23,101 bases of DNA from a virus, in the IMG/VR virus record IMGVR_UViG_3300020421_000151, positions 1 through 23,101 of that record, one strand, 5' to 3'. The translations under genes were made by a program, and so were the position numbers. This document shows positions 1,171 through 22,820 of the stretch, piece by piece. Position 1 is the first letter of the stretch. Each line of letters starts with the position of its first letter. The notes beneath the pieces were generated by a model. That model had not been told where the DNA came from. It saw nothing but the letters and a program-made list of their open reading frames with translations, and did no database searches.

Positions 1171-1659
1171 CGTTTTGCTCCTGTTTTGTTTGCTTACTAG
1201 TGTTATATGGAAAACTCGGTGAAAAGTAAGCGCGAGCAAAAAAAAATTTCGGTGAGTGAGGGCCTAGCCCTCTCCACCCCCACCCCGGTATGGTCAGAAG
1301 GGGGGGGTATTTGTAAGTTATTGATTTTATTACACTTCTTGATCTGTCTGTGTATGGCTATGTGTACAACCATACAGCCCATCCACAAGCATACACCCAT
1401 AAGCTCTTGTTTTTATTGATCTTTTTCCGTTTCTTCCCCACGCATTTGCCCCTTCTTGCTCTGTCACTGCGTGAGAGAGCGGCTATCCTCTATCGCCAGT
1501 GTATTCTTCGGCCTTACCACTGGCTTGCAGTAGGCCGTGATGTTCTGCTGCGCACCTGAGTTCATTCGGTCCTTTGATGTTGCCTGACGTTCCGTGTATA
1601 GGGCGTGACGGTTACAATCAAAGGCGCTTTGAAATAGCAGCCGAGGATCGCTCTCCGCG
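1171..1659. other. gene-free region with several inverted repeats, possible cis-acting packaging or regulatory region
   Basis: About 490 bp with no convincing gene. It holds a perfect 6-bp hairpin GAGGGC/GCCCTC (1258-1272), a C-rich stretch followed by an 8-G run near 1303, an inverted repeat TGTATGG/CCATACA (1351-1357 and 1370-1376), and a longer one GCCAGTG/CACTGGC (1495-1501 and 1518-1524). The right edge is the end of the small terminase gene. Phage cos or pac sites often lie beside terminase genes, so that role is possible, but I see no known cos sequence. Frames open here have no ribosome binding sites. Confidence 0.4.
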
Positions 1660-2109
1660 TCACTCCCCTCGATCACTATGACCAACAGGTACAACATCTT
1701 CACTGTTGATATCCTTCAATGCTTGTAGATGTTCTGACTGTAAATTGATTTGAACAGCTGGTCCTTGCTTCTCACCGTATCGCTCAGGATCTACCTTCCC
1801 AGCGATCCAACGTCTAGCATCAATCCTTACCTTTGCGATCTGCGCGTCAGCCGTATCGATGCAAGAGTCTGCGATCTTGATCGTCTCATCGGCCAACGTC
1901 TCCGCAAAATGTCTCTGAGCTCGCTTATAATCATCCCTACGACCAGGTTTACGATCCAACCAGCCATACCATATACGCTTGGATACCTGGTATTTCCTAA
2001 TCGCCTCAGTAACCGGGAGCCCGGTTGCCAAGTCTTCAAAAATGTCTTGCTCGCTCAAATCTAACCGAGCGTACAACTGCTTAGTAATCTTCTGTCCAGC
2101 CACTCTCAT
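1660..2109 (-). CDS. terS: terminase small subunit
   Basis: The protein (149 residues from ATG at 2109) has the build of the small-terminase family: an N-terminal helix-turn-helix (roughly residues 18-50, DIFEDLATGLPVTEAIRKY then WYGWLDRKPGRRDDYKRA) and an oligomerising helical region ending in the typical WIAGKVDPERYGEK motif (around residue 104-117). Small terminases recognise the packaging site on concatemeric phage DNA and recruit the large terminase ATPase/nuclease. The ribosome binding site is GGAG just upstream. The gene overlaps the 3' end of the zinc-ribbon gene, so they are one operon. The large subunit, normally next to it, is not downstream. Confidence 0.85.
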   Translation of the reverse strand: MRVAGQKITKQLYARLDLSEQDIFEDLATGLPVTEAIRKYQVSKRIWYGWLDRKPGRRDDYKRAQRHFAETLADETIKIADSCIDTADAQIAKVRIDARRWIAGKVDPERYGEKQGPAVQINLQSEHLQALKDINSEDVVPVGHSDRGE

Positions 2110-2401
2110 CAACTCCTATCTCTCTTAAAATATCACTCTCGAGCTCATCAAACTCGTTATACCCGCTTTTAGGCATGGTCATTGCCTCACGCTCCCAATC
2201 CGTTGCTCGGCGCGTCAGAGGCTTAGGTTTTGCCTCTGGCACCGTCTGTAATTTACGTTCACGAATCGGCCTCGTAAAGTAACTTTCTCTCGTGTTAAAC
2301 CTTAGTCCGCATTGTTTACACTCTCTTCTGCGTATAACGCTCTGAGAGTCCTTCTGAGTGTCCACAACGAAAGTTAGACCTGAGCACTGCGTACAGATCA
2401 C
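2081..2401 (-). CDS. NrdR-like zinc-ribbon protein, no ATP cone
   Basis: GTG at 2401 overlaps the stop of the endonuclease gene as GTGA. Residues 3-6 (CTQC) and 28-31 (CKQC) form a four-cysteine zinc ribbon; RRRECKQCGLRFNTRE closely resembles the zinc-ribbon half of NrdR, the ribonucleotide reductase repressor. The rest (about 70 residues, with KPKPLTRRATDWEREAM and an acidic tail) does not contain the ATP-cone domain that NrdR needs to sense nucleotides, so it should not be called NrdR. It is probably a small DNA- or protein-binding factor. Its place between an endonuclease and the small terminase suggests a late replication or packaging role, which is inference. Confidence 0.65.
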   Translation of the reverse strand: MICTQCSGLTFVVDTQKDSQSVIRRRECKQCGLRFNTRESYFTRPIRERKLQTVPEAKPKPLTRRATDWEREAMTMPKSGYNEFDELESDILREIGVDESGWTEDY

Positions 2402-2748
2402 AAAAGCTCTCCTTGGCCCTCAGATTTGCTCTCACGAGGTTTACCGCGAACAACTCTTGCCACTTGGTCCAACGCAGAACGATTCGACACCATTGTGCTA
2501 GTGAACCTAAGCACCCGATACCCATGTTCGAGGGCCAGGTTATATTTCTCACAATCTTTGTGAAAACCAGCCCCAGTCGTATGCCTTCCACCCGACCAGG
2601 TTCCTCCCTCGATCTCGGCAACCAACCAATGCCGAGGGAAAAGAAAATCAAACCGAAACCTTCGACCAGGTATCAGCATTTTCTCCCGCACATATCGGAT
2701 GCCAATTTCATCCAATTGTGCGGCAAACTTCTCCTCCAACTTACTCAT
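2398..2748 (-). CDS. DUF559/VSR-like PD-(D/E)XK endonuclease
   Basis: I start at ATG 2748 (MSKLEEKF, 116 residues); a longer frame upstream would translate part of the repeat region. The layout is that of the small phage restriction-endonuclease-fold proteins: an N-terminal helix, RFDF with Asp34, then AEIEGG with Glu45 and Glu47, and WSGGRHTTGAGF followed by HKDCEKYN and the hydrophobic strand YRVLRFT. Asp34 and Glu45/Glu47 are likely metal ligands. The phage role may be resolution of branched DNA before packaging, or nicking; this is inferred from its operon with the small terminase. The repeat cluster lies directly upstream. Confidence 0.75.
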   Translation of the reverse strand: MSKLEEKFAAQLDEIGIRYVREKMLIPGRRFRFDFLFPRHWLVAEIEGGTWSGGRHTTGAGFHKDCEKYNLALEHGYRVLRFTSTMVSNRSALDQVARVVRGKPRESKSEGQGELL

Positions 2749-3038
2749 AATTTGCGCAACTGCGTAGGTTGCGCAATATCTATATATAAGGAGCAACCTA
2801 CGCACTTACGCACACCTCCTAAAGCATTGATTCCATTACAGTTTTTCCTTGCGTAAGTTCCTCAAACAAACTTACGCACTCTCGAACTTACGCACTTCTG
2901 CAAACCCTTGGTGTATAAGGCTTTGCGAGTGCGTAGGTTATAAAAAGTGCGTAGGTTCGCAACTTACGCACTTACGCACTTACGCACTTTTTCCGAGCAA
3001 ATAACCAACTAAAAACCCGGCCACAAAAATAATCTCGA
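2749..3038. other. intergenic region holding the repeat cluster
   Basis: This 290-bp gap separates the EF-hand membrane gene from the endonuclease gene, both on the minus strand. Apart from the repeats it contains an AT-rich segment TCTATATATAAGG (near 2780-2791) that read on the minus strand could be a -10 element for the endonuclease-zinc ribbon-terminase operon. I found no matching -35 hexamer, so activation through the flanking repeats is a possible explanation. No ORF with a ribosome binding site is present. Confidence 0.5.
2760..2987. repeat. iteron-like cluster, consensus ACYTACGCAC
   Basis: Eleven copies of a 10-bp motif lie within 228 bp. Minus-oriented (ACYTACGCAC): 2796-2805, 2804-2813, 2870-2879, 2886-2895, 2962-2971, 2970-2979, 2978-2987. 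Plus-oriented (GTGCGTARGT or one-base variants): 2760-2769 and 2849-2858 (each one mismatch), 2929-2938, 2947-2956. The last three minus copies repeat every 8 bp, sharing two bases. Two TTGCGCAA palindromes (2752-2759, 2769-2776) and an AT-rich TATATATA segment (near 2781) adjoin. This resembles an iteron origin, a multi-site operator or a terminase-binding pac site; sequence alone does not decide. Confidence 0.85.
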
Positions 3039-3320
3039 TCACTTATGTCCATTCCTCTTGAGCACTACCTGACTGCCATATGCAGCAGCAATTACCCCCG
3101 CCATTGAGATATAAAAGAGGTCGCTAATTGACCCAATTGTTTGCAGCCGATCAGCATCGATGGGTAGTAATGCCAGGAACGGATAAACGCACATGGCAGT
3201 AATCGCCAGCCAGCTTTGCGACAACATGGTCGAGTCTTTCTCGAGCTTGCTGGCCAGTTGTGCTTCTTCCTGCGTAATTTTTCCATCACCATCTATGTCT
3301 AGTTCTATATCCGGGCTCAT
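3039..3320 (-). CDS. EF-hand, two-transmembrane protein (holin-like)
   Basis: 93 residues. Residues 8-19 (DIDGDGKITQEE) are a textbook EF-hand calcium loop with Asp at positions 1, 3 and 5, Gly at 6, Ile at 8 and Glu at 12. Two hydrophobic segments follow, about 36-53 and 66-83, so it is a small membrane protein with a soluble N-terminus and a basic C-terminus. The start ATG has an AAGGAGGACAA ribosome binding site and overlaps the methyltransferase stop as ATGA. The size and topology fit a holin or other lysis-related membrane protein; the single calcium loop is unusual for that and could couple activity to divalent ions. Function is not established. Confidence 0.65.
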   Translation of the reverse strand: MSPDIELDIDGDGKITQEEAQLASKLEKDSTMLSQSWLAITAMCVYPFLALLPIDADRLQTIGSISDLFYISMAGVIAAAYGSQVVLKRNGHK

Positions 3321-4372
3321 TTGTCCTCCTTAATTTGTTCGTTCAACACGATCCATGCTTTAGCTGCTGTTTGTGGCACTACTCCATTGCCCAAGAGCCT
3401 AAGTCTGTCCACCCGGTCGGCAATCCCATGAGCCACTCGACCCACGTTGGGTTCAACGTCCCAGATTTCTGTTCCACTGCATAATCCAGTCGGCTTCTCT
3501 TCTTGTCTTTGCCGTCCTTCCTGATGTTCGTTTGACCTGACCCCTTGTAAGCTGAAGCTGTCGGGGTTGGCCAGTTCTTCTTTGGGTTGTCCGATAGACT
3601 GTCGTTCACTGCCGCTCCTATATTCCAGCCGTGTCCTCCTGTCTCGTGCGAGGGTGCTACTCCTGTCCCTCCTGTCATCGCTGTCGGGGTTGGCCAATTC
3701 CTCGGTTCTTTGTGTACTTGCATCTGAACTTGTTGGGTTAGCCCATACTGTGCGTTCCTCCCTGTTTTCTTGTCGTATAACCTCTCGCCAGTTCTCGGAG
3801 GTTGGCCGTCTTTCGTTTGCAACCTCTCCAACGTGATACCGGGATCTTGCGCTGCGGGAGTTCGCCAAAATAAAGACTCTTTTTCTCTGGTGAGGTGCGC
3901 CGACTTCAGACGCGCTGAAAATTCCAAACGTCGTTTTGTAACCAAGTCCTTCCAGGTCTTCGATGACTTCTCGGAGTCCGAGAGAGATGTGTCCTTCGAC
4001 GTTTTCGAAGAAACACTGAACAGGTCTAACTGCTTGAATGATGTCGTGGATGTACGGCCAGAGGTGCCGGGGATCGTCTTTGCCTTTTCTTTTCCCTGCT
4101 GCTGAGAATGGCTGACAAGGATAGCCGCCAGTGAGGAGGTAAACTCTGTCTCGAAAGCAGTCCACTGGCAGGGTTTTAAGATTCGACCATATAGGCGCGG
4201 CATCCAATTGACCCGCTTCCATCTTTGCAGCCAGGTTCGCAATGGCGAAAGCTTCGATCTCCACATGAGCGACGACTCGATGTTCAAATCCGGCAAGCTC
4301 AAGTCCTCGCTCGATGCCACCATACCCGGTGCAAAGGCTAAGGACAGTGGATAGTTCTGCGGGAGAATCCAC
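3317..4372 (-). CDS. C5-type DNA cytosine methyltransferase
   Basis: 351 residues from GTG at 4372. Motif I (LSLCTGYGG, residues 11-19) binds S-adenosylmethionine; motif IV GGYPCQPFS carries the catalytic Cys86 in PCQ; motif VI FFENVEG (121-127) carries Glu of ENV; motif VIII HQRKRVFILA (161-170) follows; motifs IX-X end with RLRLLGNGVVP. The protein methylates C5 of cytosine in a specific DNA sequence, usually to protect phage DNA from host restriction or to change regulation. The target-recognition region (about 171-310) is very polar and contains several AN-P-S units (LANSRS, ANPTSS, LANPDS twice), a pattern known from other phage-borne cytosine methylases. The target is unknown. No partner restriction enzyme is next to it. 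It is in line with the holin and the EF-hand gene. Confidence 0.92.
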   Translation of the reverse strand: MDSPAELSTVLSLCTGYGGIERGLELAGFEHRVVAHVEIEAFAIANLAAKMEAGQLDAAPIWSNLKTLPVDCFRDRVYLLTGGYPCQPFSAAGKRKGKDDPRHLWPYIHDIIQAVRPVQCFFENVEGHISLGLREVIEDLEGLGYKTTFGIFSASEVGAPHQRKRVFILANSRSARSRYHVGEVANERRPTSENWREVIRQENREERTVWANPTSSDASTQRTEELANPDSDDRRDRSSTLARDRRTRLEYRSGSERQSIGQPKEELANPDSFSLQGVRSNEHQEGRQRQEEKPTGLCSGTEIWDVEPNVGRVAHGIADRVDRLRLLGNGVVPQTAAKAWIVLNEQIKEDK

Positions 4373-4862: not shown

Positions 4863-5720
4863 CTAATCTCCGCAAAAACAAGGTATAGATTCATCGTCAT
4901 AACCAAACAAACTACCTTGGTCAGTTGCTATCATTTTCATATCTGCATAAGACGGCTGATCACTTCTGAATGTCCCTGCCTTCTGGCCTTTTCCTACCTT
5001 AGTCTCCATCTCCGACCACCAGTCAACTAAGTCAGGCCGTGCCTGAACGATAGATAGTTTTTTGTTGAAACCTTTCAGGAAACACAAATCACAATTGCCC
5101 CAGTCAGTCACACCATTGTTGTTAGGCAGTTCAAGATCAAAGTTTTGTTCTGTCCAGAACTCATACACCTCTTTGACGTCCACGTTATCGTCCACCAAAG
5201 GCAGTATGTTTCTTGGTTCCTTTCTCAGTTTGGCTGCTCTTCGTTGTTCGTCAGCCCTGATCCCAATGATGTTTGCCCAGTCAGTGTTGCCAAATTTATT
5301 CTTCATCCAGTCTCTGATTCGGAGCACTTTAAGCTCTTGTGTACAGAATCTAGCGACCGGGTTAGGCAGGTATTGCCTAGCAACAATAAGAGATTCAAAA
5401 GGCTCACCGTTCCTGCTTGCAGATTCGTAATTAACCTCTTTAGTTTCATACACATATTTGTTTTCGTTCTCTTCGCCAGGTCGAGCAATACACTCCAGCC
5501 AAGTGATATCCACACCCCAATGAACAGAACATGCCTGAACAAAGTCCAGTGTCTGCGTCATCTCTTTTCCTGTGTTCGCAAAGGTAACTGGTAGGTAGTC
5601 AGGCAACTGTCCGTCATGGGCATCAAGGATCTTCCAGAGCATGTACCCAGAAGTTCGACCACCACTGAAAGAAATGCACGCTGGTTCGTTTATGTAATAA
5701 GGATTAAAAGGGCGCTTCAT
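4863..5720 (-). CDS. PAPS-reductase-family (PP-loop) protein, phage type
   Basis: 285 residues. The ATP-pyrophosphatase PP-loop is SGGRTS at 19-24. Further hallmarks are TFANTGKE (47-53), ARFCTQELK with Cys126, GIRADEQRR (153-161), and two cysteine pairs: CDLC (210-213) in NCDLCFLKG, and CFC near the C-terminus (281, 283). These cysteines could bind an iron-sulphur cluster or carry persulphide. Family members reduce PAPS or APS, or activate a nucleotide for sulphur transfer (as DndC does for DNA phosphorothioation). A sulphur-assimilation role is unlikely for an isolated phage gene; nucleic-acid modification is an attractive inference, not shown. The start has GGGAG upstream and overlaps the end of the Prim-Pol gene by 17 nt. 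Confidence 0.85.
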   Translation of the reverse strand: MKRPFNPYYINEPACISFSGGRTSGYMLWKILDAHDGQLPDYLPVTFANTGKEMTQTLDFVQACSVHWGVDITWLECIARPGEENENKYVYETKEVNYESASRNGEPFESLIVARQYLPNPVARFCTQELKVLRIRDWMKNKFGNTDWANIIGIRADEQRRAAKLRKEPRNILPLVDDNVDVKEVYEFWTEQNFDLELPNNNGVTDWGNCDLCFLKGFNKKLSIVQARPDLVDWWSEMETKVGKGQKAGTFRSDQPSYADMKMIATDQGSLFGYDDESIPCFCGD

Positions 5721-7656
5721 TTTCGAGCTCCCAAATCGGCCTCACATATGAAAAACTCCGCCGTGCTTTTGCGTCGACCATCTCAAAAATCTCGAACTGG
5801 CCGTTGTCGATCCACACTTCCATCAACTGCTTGATCTTGCTCTTGACGCTCGCTTCTAAAACATCGAGCTCCAGCACCTCGGCCACGGCATTACCAAACC
5901 AGTGCTTGCTCCTCACATCCAAGCGCCAATCGCCCTCCTTCATCCGCCCTTTGACTGCCTCGAGGTCCTGCACCGTGATATCGCTAAACGCATCTGGCCA
6001 AGACCACGCCTCAACCACGCCGACGTTATCGCCGTTGGGCAAATCAATGGACCGCATCTCACGCCAGGAGTTGTCCGTTGTTGGCGGTGCGAGGTTGTCT
6101 TTCGAATCTGCTTCTCTCGTATAACGCCATGCCGTGCTCTCATCTATTCCAGCAAGCCTCGCTTCATCCGGCGTCATCTTCACCAGGCGGCGAACATGGC
6201 GAGCTTTATCGGTAAGAGCGCTTGCACCTCTGGCATCGTCATAACTGACGCTCGACCTCATCGCTTGCGCTTTCCTGGTGTGATGCACGATCTCAATTGA
6301 GCAATTAGCCCGGTCAGCAACAACTGCCCATTGCGTGACCACTGCGTTCATGGCCATGTTGTCGTTTTCGTTTATGTCATGAGTCGCAACGAAAGGATCA
6401 ATAATCACCACATCAATTTGGCAGCGAGTGATGAACTCAACCAGCAAATCAACAACTGGTGTCGGCACAATCTGATCACCAATTTTTTGCGTGACCATAA
6501 GCCGATCATCGCGGCCACTGTTCACAAATAGAGATTCTTCGTATTCTTCCGGCTCAATGCCGTAATGCAGCATGATCGCTGCGAGTCTGCGATGGAGCTC
6601 CTCGAGCGGGTCTTCAAGATTCCACACCCACACCCTGCGCTTTTCCGTCTCAACGCCCAGCAAGTTTCTGCCAGTGGCCATTGCTACCGCCTCGGCCATC
6701 GTGAGGGCAGTCTTGCCAGTTCCGCCACCAGCAACCGTCACGCTCAAAAATTTCCGAATGTAATGCCGCCCATACACCCACTCTCTTTTAGGGATGGCTG
6801 CAAAATCTGTGATTGCAAACGGCTTGGGTTGTAATCGGTGCGAGAGCTCTTCTTTTATCTCAACTAATTGCTTTTCTTTTTCTTCCGCTCTCACCCCCTC
6901 ATTGCGCTCATGCGTTTGCATAACAGAGCGAGCGGTCCTGATGATCTCCTCTCGATCAAGGGGTGGTCGGTTGAATTGATTCCACTGGAGGAGCTCTTCG
7001 ATTGTCTCGTTTAAAGAATGGCCATTTTTTATAAGGTGTCCTGCCTTCCTTGCAGTTGCGTCATTGCGTCCACTAACACCAACGCCACCCTCCTCCACAC
7101 CAAGTTTTGAAGGATCAAGAAGAAACCCTCCCTTGTTGTAGTCCTCGATACGCAAAACGTCTGTCTGCAAAACAGGCGGCAACTCTCGCCAATCACCGTC
7201 GAACCCCTCGACCACCTCTTCCGTATAAACCGCCCCGCTCTCATGAACTGAGCCTGGAGCAATGACAATGCCGCCCTTACCTCGCACATCGATCTTGGCA
7301 TTGGCGTTGGTGCTGTTTCTGATCTCTAAATCTGGCGATGCCTGAAAATAAAAATGCCTTCCTCTTGAAGTTTTGACCGTGCGTGGCGTGAAGGGCAGAT
7401 TCTCTTTGATCCAGACTTCGGCCTCTTGACTATCCGCATCGATCACCACCAATTGTTTGCCGCATACGATGGCATAGTTAGCGCCCTCAAATTCTCTACC
7501 GAGCCAACGCTCGTATAAATGGTCGGGCGGATCTTCAGTCTGCCACTGAGCCCAGGGTACAAGAGGATGTTTTCGTATAGGGTGGGCAGGAATGACGGTG
7601 AGCCCTTCTTCAATTAGTCTTTGCGCTTCGTCTCGAGCGCTCATCTCAGGAAGCAT
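5704..7656 (-). CDS. bifunctional Prim-Pol primase/polymerase with RepA-like (AAA_25) helicase domain
   Basis: 650 residues. The N-terminal domain (1-160) has the archaeo-eukaryotic-primase-type Prim-Pol signature: VIDADS with Asp73 and Asp75, the SRGRHFYF motif with His101, and KIDVRGKGG with Asp123. A linker leads to a RecA-fold helicase domain (about 280-480) with Walker A GGGTGKT (310-316), Walker B DVVIIDP (Asp420) and VHHTRK (457-462). Such fusions prime and unwind DNA to start phage replication. The C-terminus (about 550-650) has a winged-helix-like appearance. The first ATG (7656) overlaps the Cro-like gene; a second in-frame ATG at 7644 lies 1 nt beyond its stop and is an alternative. 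First large gene of the leftward operon. Confidence 0.9.
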   Translation of the reverse strand: MLPEMSARDEAQRLIEEGLTVIPAHPIRKHPLVPWAQWQTEDPPDHLYERWLGREFEGANYAIVCGKQLVVIDADSQEAEVWIKENLPFTPRTVKTSRGRHFYFQASPDLEIRNSTNANAKIDVRGKGGIVIAPGSVHESGAVYTEEVVEGFDGDWRELPPVLQTDVLRIEDYNKGGFLLDPSKLGVEEGGVGVSGRNDATARKAGHLIKNGHSLNETIEELLQWNQFNRPPLDREEIIRTARSVMQTHERNEGVRAEEKEKQLVEIKEELSHRLQPKPFAITDFAAIPKREWVYGRHYIRKFLSVTVAGGGTGKTALTMAEAVAMATGRNLLGVETEKRRVWVWNLEDPLEELHRRLAAIMLHYGIEPEEYEESLFVNSGRDDRLMVTQKIGDQIVPTPVVDLLVEFITRCQIDVVIIDPFVATHDINENDNMAMNAVVTQWAVVADRANCSIEIVHHTRKAQAMRSSVSYDDARGASALTDKARHVRRLVKMTPDEARLAGIDESTAWRYTREADSKDNLAPPTTDNSWREMRSIDLPNGDNVGVVEAWSWPDAFSDITVQDLEAVKGRMKEGDWRLDVRSKHWFGNAVAEVLELDVLEASVKSKIKQLMEVWIDNGQFEIFEMVDAKARRSFSYVRPIWELENEAPF

Positions 7657-12407: not shown

Positions 12408-12601
12408 ATTTGTTGACCAAAAAAGAAGTGGCTAAAAAGTGTGGCGTCAGTACCCGCACCATTGATCGAATGTTAGATCGAGATCCTAGTTTTCCTAAGC
12501 CAAGAAAACCAATGGGGATCAAAGTGCATTACATTGCTGAAGAAGTTGATCAGTGGCTTTCCAAAGCAACGTCGGAGAATGCAAAGTCCTCGTACTCTTG
12601 A
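12404..12601 (+). CDS. AlpA/MerR-type HTH protein, probable excisionase
   Basis: About 65 residues from GTG at 12404, which overlaps the stop of the membrane peptide and has AGGAG about 11 nt upstream; a longer frame to 12326 runs through that gene in another frame. The motif VNLLTKKEVAKKCGVSTRTI then DRMLDRDPSFPKPRKPMG then YIAEEVDQWL is the AlpA-type winged HTH. Such proteins control integrase expression or act as recombination directionality factors. It converges on the integrase gene, and their 3' ends overlap by 52 bp. Confidence 0.8.
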   Translation: MNLLTKKEVAKKCGVSTRTIDRMLDRDPSFPKPRKPMGIKVHYIAEEVDQWLSKATSENAKSSYS

Positions 12602-13776
12602 ATTAATTTAACGCGCCTGTCGAAGAGATCGGTCCTCATGTAAGCGGCGAGGACCGCATTTCTCTCTCGGTGCCCGAGTTGGCGATCTGCGTCTTCGCGG
12701 GTTCCTGCACCAGTGGCCGTTGCCCAATCCATAAAAGTAGATCGAAAACCATGAATCGTGACTCGCTTGCCCAGGGCATCAGTACGAGAAAAAACGTCTA
12801 AGGATTTATCGAGCGAGTTGCTGCTAATGAATTTATTCTTGCCGCTCCCTGGAAACAATCTCTCATCTTGCGAATACTCTTTCATTTCCTGAAGTAACCA
12901 AAGCAATCTTTTAGGAATTGGTAGCTTATGCACTTCCCCACCCAGTTTTTGAATCGGGCACATCCAGACGCCAGATTGCAAATCAAAGTGGTCCCAGACG
13001 GCCTCTCTCGCATCATTACTGCGTACTTGGGTGAGCGAAATCAATTTTAGGGCGCTGTACGAGCCGCTTTTTCGGTCCCAAATCTCAGAAATAAAGCCTG
13101 GGAGCTCATCGAAAGGCAAAGCTGCATGGTGATTTATTTCTGGCTTGAACTTCGGTAAAAGGTTCTCGAGCAAGTTTTTATACTGAGCCGGATTCCTTTT
13201 TTCACTGATGCCTTTCGCAATCGCGTAGTCGATTATGTTTTCTACGCGAGATCGAGTGCGAACTGCTGTTTCGTGCTTGGTGGTCCAGATCGGTTTTAGA
13301 ACTTTCACAACATCGTCGGGATAGATGTCCTCGATTTCTTTCTTACCAATCACTGGCAAGATGTAACTGTTCAAAGTGTTCTGCCAGGACTGTTCGCTTC
13401 GGCCTCGATCATTCCAAACCGGGCGTTTGATATTTTTAATGTAGTCCTCGGCAACAACTGCAAACGAAGTAACTTTCTTTTCAGTCCTTCTGGCACTCGC
13501 AACTTTATTTTGTTTTTGTTCGCGCAAAAGCTCCTGCGGCGCTTGATCGGAGCTCAGGAGCTCGGCTGCTTTTGCTCGAGCTTGTTTAGGGGAGATTGCC
13601 GGGTAAGAGCCAATGTATATCCACTTACGTTTGCCGTCGATTGTTTGGCGGATACGCCACTGTTTTTTTGTAGCGTTTTTATTATTTTCTACATAAAGAT
13701 AGAGGCTCGGGGCGCAACGAAAGTTGCCAGATTTTTTTAAATTTTTCACTTGTAAGTCTGAAAGCGCTTTTGGCAT
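12550..13776 (-). CDS. int: P4-type tyrosine integrase
   Basis: I prefer ATG 13776 (MPKALSDLQVKN), the usual start of P4-type integrases; an in-frame ATG at 13800 would add eight residues, but those would be encoded by two GGGATACC repeats that look like integrase binding sites. The N-terminal DUF4102 arm-binding domain (1-85) is followed by a SAM-like core-binding domain and the catalytic domain. In the 408-residue numbering the active-site residues are Arg252 (LTQVRSND), His342 and Arg345 (HGFRSTF), His369 (LGHRERN) and Tyr379 (AAYMRTD). It catalyses site-specific integration at attP and sits next to it. Confidence 0.95.
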   Translation of the reverse strand: MPKALSDLQVKNLKKSGNFRCAPSLYLYVENNKNATKKQWRIRQTIDGKRKWIYIGSYPAISPKQARAKAAELLSSDQAPQELLREQKQNKVASARRTEKKVTSFAVVAEDYIKNIKRPVWNDRGRSEQSWQNTLNSYILPVIGKKEIEDIYPDDVVKVLKPIWTTKHETAVRTRSRVENIIDYAIAKGISEKRNPAQYKNLLENLLPKFKPEINHHAALPFDELPGFISEIWDRKSGSYSALKLISLTQVRSNDAREAVWDHFDLQSGVWMCPIQKLGGEVHKLPIPKRLLWLLQEMKEYSQDERLFPGSGKNKFISSNSLDKSLDVFSRTDALGKRVTIHGFRSTFMDWATATGAGTREDADRQLGHRERNAVLAAYMRTDLFDRRVKLIQEYEDFAFSDVALESH

Positions 13777-13778
13777 TG

Positions 13779-13798
13779 GGGATACCTTTAGGGATACC
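13779..13798 (+). repeat. left arm-type pair GGGATACC
   Basis: GGGATACC at 13779-13786 and again at 13791-13798, 12 bp apart, same orientation as the pair at 13975. It lies in or just before the integrase start. Probable arm-type integrase sites. Confidence 0.65.
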
Positions 13799-13824
13799 AT
13801 TTGATGGCGAAGTATGACATAGCA

Positions 13825-22265: not shown

Positions 22266-22820
22266 TTAACATTTTGCTCGACCACACTTACGCATGTTGC
22301 GCTGCCTTTCTTTTGCGTTCTCAAGTTTTTTGATGGCCGACTTTAGCTGTGCGTCTTTGTATTCGCCATGCAAAAACCAACCAGCCCATCCTAGAAAAAC
22401 AAAAGACACCGTGATGAATGCACTCGCTGAAAGTGCTTGCATTTTTTTTCTGCGCTCTGCTCTCTTTTTGCCAATTTCTTTTAAGTAGGCAGTGTGCTCA
22501 CGCTGGCTTTTTTCCATGAGCCGCATTGCGTCTTGGTAAATTTTCTGGCCACCAGGGAGCATTCGGAAATGGTCTTGCAGGGATTGTCTTGCTTGTGCGG
22601 CTTTTGCTCTACTGGTTGCCAGTTTAATTGAATCTGCCTGGCTTAAAGGCTTGCGAGTTTTTTTCTTGCGCTCCCACTTATCAAGGCGCTGGTTTGCATC
22701 TTGAAATTTGTCGAGAATGCCAACCGCTTGCTCGACATTGCCGCCAGTCTCGCGCAGCGTGTTAAGCCCAGCATTAACCGAGTTTAAAATTCCTAGAATG
22801 GCCGAAATTTCGGCAAACAA
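22266..22820 (-). CDS. coiled-coil protein with one transmembrane helix, lysis-region hypothetical
   Basis: 184 residues from TTG at 22820 (no ATG before residue 85 and no clear ribosome binding site; the perfect palindrome GCCGAAATTTCGGC at 22801-22814 covers the first codons). An amphipathic N-terminal section (AEISAILGILNSVNAGLNTL) and basic, Gln-rich helices lead to a single TM helix at about 130-151 (SASAFITVSFVFLGWAGWFL) and a short charged C-terminus. The topology (long soluble domain, then TM) differs from a spanin. Role unknown; adjacent genes are membrane/lysis proteins. Confidence 0.6.
   Translation of the reverse strand: MFAEISAILGILNSVNAGLNTLRETGGNVEQAVGILDKFQDANQRLDKWERKKKTRKPLSQADSIKLATSRAKAAQARQSLQDHFRMLPGGQKIYQDAMRLMEKSQREHTAYLKEIGKKRAERRKKMQALSASAFITVSFVFLGWAGWFLHGEYKDAQLKSAIKKLENAKERQRNMRKCGRAKC

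Follow-up and report, generated by a model that had tools for sequence, protein, structure and literature searches.

The viral DNA analysed here (23,101 nt, positions 1 to 23,101 of IMG/VR record IMGVR_UViG_3300020421_000151; hereafter the window) carries a tight cluster of 10-bp repeats, and the question is what this cluster does. An earlier note, made from the letters alone, had suggested an origin of replication with iterons for the Prim-Pol/helicase, a multi-site operator or the terminase pac site. For the first of these the support is strong: at the level of sequence, the array is linked to the Prim-Pol gene, its anatomy is conserved and it co-evolves with the C-terminal wing of the Prim-Pol. 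We consider it very probable that phage replication starts at the array, where the Prim-Pol helicase would bind by this wing, IHF would bend the DNA and an AT-rich part would melt.

The motif ACYTACGCAC was said to occur eleven times in both orientations, and a motif count confirmed this, with nine exact copies and two that carry one mismatch (2760-2769 and 2849-2858, both on the minus strand) within 2760-2987. The whole window holds 13 matches, a count reached in none of 100 dinucleotide shuffles (mean 1.39, maximum 5). Just two matches lie outside the array, each with one mismatch: the one previously placed near 22285 was found at 22286-22295, but it was not the only one, as another lies at 2505-2514. 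The iteron word of the window is ACTTACGCA, also written ACTTACGCAC. The features of the array and its surroundings are as follows.

2760-2987, both orientations: array of 11 copies of ACYTACGCAC, the proposed replication origin (motif count, relatives)
2962-2987, plus strand: three overlapping iterons with an 8-bp period, starting at 2962, 2970 and 2978 (motif matches; triplet kept in most relatives)
2929-2956, minus strand: two inverted iterons, 2929-2938 and 2947-2956 (motif matches, relatives)
2849-2895, mixed strands: middle iterons 2849-2858 (minus, one mismatch), 2870-2879 (plus) and 2886-2895 (plus) (motif matches)
2820-2832, minus strand: IHF-consensus box AATCAATGCTTTA (WATCAANNNNTTR) (consensus match, fixed offset in most relatives)
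2796-2813, plus strand: tandem iteron pair, 2796-2805 and 2804-2813, flanking the AT-rich tract (motif matches)
about 2775-2789, no strand: AT-rich tract, candidate DNA-unwinding element (composition, duplex stability)
2752-2776, no strand: hairpin TTGCGCAAC / loop CTACGCA / GTTGCGCAA, beside the AT tract (inverted arms)

The overlapping triplet was present as described, and a second tandem with the 8-bp offset lies at 2796/2804. Read in the orientation of the Prim-Pol gene, the iterons follow the pattern ---++--+--+ with spacings of 8, 8, 14, 18, 44, 16, 20, 46, 8 and 35 bp. The 8-bp period had been regarded as an oddity, a worry that vanishes once the whole conserved geometry of the array is considered. 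If the endonuclease starts at ATG 2748, the array is confined to the gap that separates ORFs 3039-3320 and 2398-2748; the claim that no gene overlaps it fails if the upstream GTG 2805 is used.

Profile searches confirmed the flanking genes that had been named, with the Prim-Pol helicase upstream and the endonuclease, NrdR-like and small terminase genes downstream. The order on one strand is Prim-Pol, other genes, array, DUF559-like endonuclease, NrdR-like zinc ribbon and Sf6-type small terminase. The genes and domains used below are listed here.

5704-7656, minus strand: Prim-Pol with PriCT-1, RecA-type (AAA_25) helicase and C-terminal winged helix, the proposed initiator (Pfam, AlphaFold)
5737-5973, minus strand: C-terminal winged helix of the Prim-Pol, residues 562-640 (AlphaFold, Foldseek)
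5743-5775, minus strand: wing, residues 628-638, whose changes track iteron changes (co-evolution)
2398-2748, minus strand: DUF559/VSR-like endonuclease (phrog_503), downstream of the array (profile search)
1660-2109, minus strand: Sf6-type terminase small subunit, TerS (profile search)

The primase domain matched PF09250 in Pfam. AlphaFold gave a winged helix both when the C-terminus was modelled by itself and when the whole Prim-Pol was, with helices at 562-574, 587-594 and 602-617 and strands at 621-628 and 633-640. The best Foldseek matches of the C-terminus in the PDB were winged-helix regulators, with a probability of 0.99 but a weak E-value (0.02). In the window, a PAPS-reductase-like gene (4863-5720) and a C5 cytosine methyltransferase gene (3317-4372) lie between the Prim-Pol and the array, and likewise in locus L091, so that this interval appears as a recurrent insertion spot for accessory genes.

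The surroundings of the array were also compared with those of known origins. An adjoining AT segment had been claimed, and a TATATA tract was indeed found at about 2775-2789; among the 25-mers of 2700-3050, the one with the lowest stability begins at 2776 and ranks at the 99th percentile of the window. The tract directly adjoins the tandem iteron pair, and its core is 97-100% A/T in 30 distinct sequences. The reported TTGCGCAA palindromes are present, but they are the two arms of one hairpin, whose loop lies inside an iteron. The order after the last tandem iteron pair is A/T tract, then hairpin. The stem, of 5-13 bp, beat shuffles at p<=0.05 in 23 of 28 distinct sequences, and it was kept with 17 different best stems among the 28 distinct loci, its sequence varying. 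The IHF-consensus box at 2820-2832, missed in the first reading, keeps a constant offset in most long arrays, that of the window included. Consensus matches numbered 54 in 18.7 kb of array DNA versus 66 in 572 kb elsewhere (25-fold enriched), while the perfect consensus was absent from compact arrays of about 150 bp (L026-L039, L093) and from L081. Short repeats clustered close to the gene of an initiator, an adjacent AT-rich region and an auxiliary IHF site, absent from the compact class, are all features of iteron-type origins; wing-iteron co-evolution suggests that their remaining feature, an initiator DNA-binding domain matched to the iterons, is here as well.

The earlier note had proposed a search of relatives for the same motif at the same place. 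The array and its geometry were found at that place, but the centre of the iteron differs by lineage. A Prim-Pol protein search returned 80 viral loci, and arrays were mapped in 57 viral loci, including the window, with Prim-Pol proteins 39-91% identical; in all of these the array lies downstream of the Prim-Pol gene, where contigs extend far enough. Eight further loci end too early for the presence of an array to be judged. The array of the window recurs in the same position in three close relatives (L009, L011, L014), with a mean column identity of 94%. A blind k-mer scan showed that most Prim-Pol loci have one repeated word clustered downstream of the gene, differing by lineage: ACTTACGCA, ACTGACGCA, ACTGTCGCA, ACTGGAGCA, ACTGGAGAA, ACTGGCGCA, ACTGATGCA, ACTGGTGCA, ACTGTAGCA, ACCGTCGCA or GGTGTCGCA. 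These words share the skeleton ACYKNNGCA around a lineage-specific centre. Spacing and orientation are nearly constant across lineages, and 10-11 iterons are conserved. For example, the spacings are 9, 8, 14, 18, 44, 16, 20, 45, 9 and 35 bp in L024 (iteron ACTGTCGCA) and 8, 9, 14, 18, 44, 16, 20, 45, 9 and 34 bp in L053 (iteron GGTGTCGCA), both with the orientation pattern of the window. The geometry of these two arrays is thus the same as in the window within 1 bp, yet every repeat has changed.

In a second scan based on the Prim-Pol alignment, all seven new testable viral loci had arrays (L120, L155, L157, L158, L161, L163, L164), although L155 is close to L075 and L157 is close to L158. Additional viral loci with arrays reach down to 45-47% identity. 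Arrays were also found beside Prim-Pol homologues in Bradyrhizobium erythrophlei (L103) and an alphaproteobacterial MAG (L105). The lineage of L051, L052 and L091 (wing KHRKMRAFV) did not show the predicted ACTGGCGCA array in the sequence examined; in L091, GGGTCAC repeats accompanied by two inverted AATCAATGACTTA IHF boxes lie at +2205 to +2400 after the Prim-Pol instead, and the downstream genes are different. Rhizobium phage RHph_X2_26 (H1), the best cultured Prim-Pol match, has no array downstream of the gene, and its C-terminus differs. Four loci with exact-motif matches (L010, L012, L013, L015) were not counted as relatives because no window protein matched there. Two of them carry tandem ACTTACGCAC repeats (L012 10419-10838, L015 2275-2315), perhaps convergent iterons or low-complexity repeats.

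If the Prim-Pol reads the array, its DNA-binding region should change when the iterons change. Iteron changes were placed on a tree of Prim-Pol residues 1-600 with 56 leaves, and 14 of the 17 fell on branches where wing residues 628-638 change (Fisher p 1.5e-8). Because Fisher values ignore branch length, comparison with other segments is the fair control, and the best of 488 other 11-residue segments of the Prim-Pol gave 8e-5, none coming near the wing. On matched leaves, the wing gave 1e-7, 2.5e-6 and 2.2e-8, versus 3e-4 for the best TerS segment, 0.013 for the endonuclease and 0.003 for the NrdR-like protein. The partial Mantel correlation for Prim-Pol residues 612-650 was 0.30 (p 0.012) among the 21 loci with all proteins and 0.18, with a borderline p of 0.053, among all 37 representatives; it was negative for TerS, the endonuclease and the NrdR-like protein. 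A whole-tree covariation scan by column was confounded by the GGTGTCGCA clade, and the wing did not stand out in it; close pairs and branch counting took its place. Many of the metagenome contigs are near-duplicates, which the tree and close-pair tests handle.

Close pairs gave the same picture. Their wings differ by 39% on average when the motifs differ versus 6% when the motif is the same, while the endonuclease and TerS differ no more in pairs with different motifs (10% versus 11-12%). Between L078 and L080, 12 of the 13 listed Prim-Pol differences fall in residues 613-648, the endonuclease and NrdR-like proteins are identical, and TerS differs by 1.4%. Since the endonuclease can be identical between phages with different iterons, it is not the iteron binder. 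L043 and L045 are identical in Prim-Pol residues 546-627 and in TerS; their wings are ASRHMRKHI and SQRRLRKYV and their iterons ACTGTCGCA and ACTGGAGCA. The DNA identity of such pairs dips only at the last 100-200 bp of the Prim-Pol gene and at the array.

The wing residues also appear to correspond to particular bases. The core x1-R-x2 pairs with bases 5-6 of ACTGNNGCA, as follows: SRH with TC; QRH, TRH or NRH with AC; QRR with GA; HRK with GC; TRM with AT; SRQM with GT; and SRQP with TA. Two exceptions were seen, L021, with SRRP and AC, and the lineage of the window, with a different wing, AKARRSFSYV, and ACTTACGCA. Outside the training set, the correspondence agreed for L157/L158 (TRM, AT), L155 (QRH, AC), L103 (RR, GA) and L105 (RK, GC), while the wings of L161, L163 and L164 fell outside the known rules. 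L042 and L055 could not serve as blind tests, as their contigs stop before a readable array or carry another gene there. Separate lineages with like wing residues have the same bases (HRKM/HRKL with GC, SRHM with TC, QRRL/QRRP with GA), as direct recognition predicts. These patterns are suggestive of a recognition code. A further reading, which we hold tentatively and rate somewhat below an even chance, is that the code evolves fast: the central bases of every iteron would be set by a few wing residues (roughly x-R-x, 631-633), the iterons within one origin would all switch together with the geometry kept, and relatives would repeatedly become mutually non-cognate replicons. Competition among co-infecting phages, satellites or origin-targeting nucleases might drive such change.

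Could the co-variation be a by-product of recombination, which swaps the 3' end of the Prim-Pol gene and the array as one linked block, rather than a sign of direct recognition? The two changed stretches are contiguous in L078/L080, as a block swap would have it. However, a conserved 470-bp HNH gene splits them in L043/L045, L060/L064 and L074/L075/L076, with the identity dips persisting on either side, and the recurrence of like wing residues with the same bases in separate lineages also speaks against this explanation, which we judge distinctly improbable. The small HNH-type gene lies between the Prim-Pol stop and the array in several lineages (L023, L040, L074; 0 to about +460). It is conserved while both neighbours change, and is perhaps a homing endonuclease beside the origin.

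The position of the array just upstream of the endonuclease, NrdR-like and TerS operon, in the window and in relatives, would also suit a packaging site, in which TerS would bind the iterons as part of a cos/pac region; in lambda cosB, too, repeats (the R sites) occur together with an IHF site. This reading is very unlikely, because TerS is 98.6-100% identical in three pairs in which all iterons changed (L043/L045, L078/L080, L074/L075), and its partial Mantel value was -0.13, versus +0.30 for the Prim-Pol C-terminus. By Mantel test, close pairs and branch counting, the sites do not track the small terminase, and the earlier suggestion of a pac site is abandoned. A better packaging candidate is a second conserved non-coding element just past TerS (window about 1190-1330, minus strand), in which a C-tract and then a G-tract (CCCCCCC...GGGGGTGGGGG) come after an IHF-consensus box, AATCAATAACTTA in the window and AATCAATGACTTA in most relatives. 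It was also found in L017, L023, L029, L026, L036, L040, L045, L058, L078 and L080, about 1.2-1.4 kb past the array, and is a candidate packaging or late regulatory site. The same gene order raises the possibility of an operator, at which the Prim-Pol wing or a phage repressor would regulate the co-directional late-gene operon with no origin function. The multi-site operator of the earlier note is compatible with the data, and iteron initiators often autoregulate too, but it explains less than an origin does and is not needed. The co-varying domain belongs to a replicative Prim-Pol/helicase and not to CI or Cro; origins typically contain an AT tract, an IHF box and a hairpin, as this array does; and a sigma-70 consensus scan found no promoter in the array above chance, a result that is neutral for the origin reading. 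We therefore regard a pure operator as improbable. An attP, with arm-type and IHF sites for the phage integrase, is extremely unlikely, even though about 230 bp with repeats in both orientations and an IHF site resembles lambda attP. The integrase gene (12550-13800) is 10 kb away and not next to the array, arrays persist in relatives with serine-recombinase-like genes (L040, L074, L093), and the iterons co-vary with the Prim-Pol, not with the integrase. The pac, attP and CI/Cro operator readings were thus rejected on TerS identity, integrase distance and co-variation with the Prim-Pol domain. GC skew, proposed as a check, was one-directional in the window and six relatives of 35-37 kb, with no sign change at the array; it counts neither for nor against an origin because the skew is set by one-directional coding.

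For the preferred reading, a replication origin bound by the Prim-Pol, the following mechanism can be proposed. Several Prim-Pol protomers would bind the iterons through their winged-helix wings, and IHF would bend the stretch that separates the two iteron groups. The AT-rich tract beside the tandem pair could then be opened by the complex, the attached helicase ring would be loaded there and the attached Prim-Pol would prime, with the hairpin perhaps as the site of priming. A single polypeptide would then serve as initiator, helicase and primase and would itself recognise the origin from which it works. Evolutionary evidence bears on one of these steps, binding specificity; the others are proposed by analogy with P4 alpha, SaPI Rep, pRN1 ORF904 and RSF1010.

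In the P4 alpha protein, a single polypeptide holds a primase, a helicase and, at its C-terminus, a winged helix by which it binds the origin repeats (PMC4234260). The protein described here is alike in having primase, helicase and, by AlphaFold, a C-terminal winged helix in one chain, with repeats at the origin as in the ori/crr iterons. Unlike P4, whose primase is of the Toprim type, it has an archaeo-eukaryotic Prim-Pol and an AAA_25/RecA-type helicase, and most arrays include an IHF box. As its primase domain is PF09250 and not Toprim, it works alike but is not a member of the P4-alpha family. The iteron sequence of the window is presumably unrelated to the P4 iterons. SaPI Rep, like SCCmec Cch2, is an initiator helicase that reads, with its C-terminal domain, iterons lying immediately downstream of the gene that encodes it (PMC7581432). 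That arrangement is the same, but SaPI Rep is a D5/SF3-type helicase of Gram-positive islands and not of the RecA type, and the text consulted describes no wing-iteron series for SaPI. In pRN1 ORF904, an archaeo-eukaryotic primase, a helicase and a C-terminal winged helix are combined, and the origin downstream of the gene has a stem-loop conserved in form and not in sequence (PMC4234260). The domain layout, the downstream origin and the varying stem-loop are shared; however, pRN1 has an SF3 helicase and a large stem-loop origin without iterons, whereas here iterons dominate and the hairpin is small.

In the PLE satellites of Vibrio cholerae, the DNA-binding domain of RepA_N/ori modules co-varies with the iterons, only cognate pairs replicate, and an anti-satellite nuclease targets the iterons (PMC8263062). 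The co-variation of an initiator domain with origin iterons is similar, but PLE uses an N-terminal RepA_N domain, a replisome hijacked from the helper phage and few allelic types, whereas here the replicase belongs to the phage itself, and at least 10 iteron types go with one wing of it. The oriV of RSF1010 has 20-bp RepC iterons, an AT-rich region and ssi hairpins, served by a separate RepA helicase and RepB' primase. Iterons, AT-rich tract, hairpins and a dedicated initiator, helicase and primase are thus common to both, but RSF1010 uses three separate proteins in place of one fused protein and 20-bp iterons in place of iterons of about 9 bp.

Iteron origins downstream of an initiator helicase and read by its C-terminus (P4, SaPI), and initiator-origin co-variation (PLE), were already known. 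A description of the origin of the Prim-Pol/RecA-helicase family was not found in the open-access literature searched, which omits most subscription journals, and the novelty therefore appears to be a P4/SaPI-like origin that belongs to a Prim-Pol family not described before and comes with a natural series of unusual richness. A likely origin is located and its proposed binder named in little-characterised phages known mostly from environmental metagenomes, and the short DNA sequence that each Prim-Pol variant should bind becomes predictable. Since wing and iterons are nearly all that distinguishes the members of natural pairs, specificity could be tested without designed variants. How and why about ten iterons change together with their protein, and so often, becomes a testable question in replicon evolution.

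Repeat clusters were also seen downstream of more distant RepA-like helicase genes, in Rhodoferax phage P26218 (TTGTAGCAG, L167 2866-2998), Microcystis phage Mae-Yong1326-1 (GACTGGCGC, L168, about 198-391 into the downstream stretch) and podovirus ctfPj964 (TACTCACAG, L170, about 744-1010 into it). Therefore, the rule of an array downstream of the helicase may reach cultured phages. For the Microcystis phage, the wing and bases (RK, GC) agree with the putative code.
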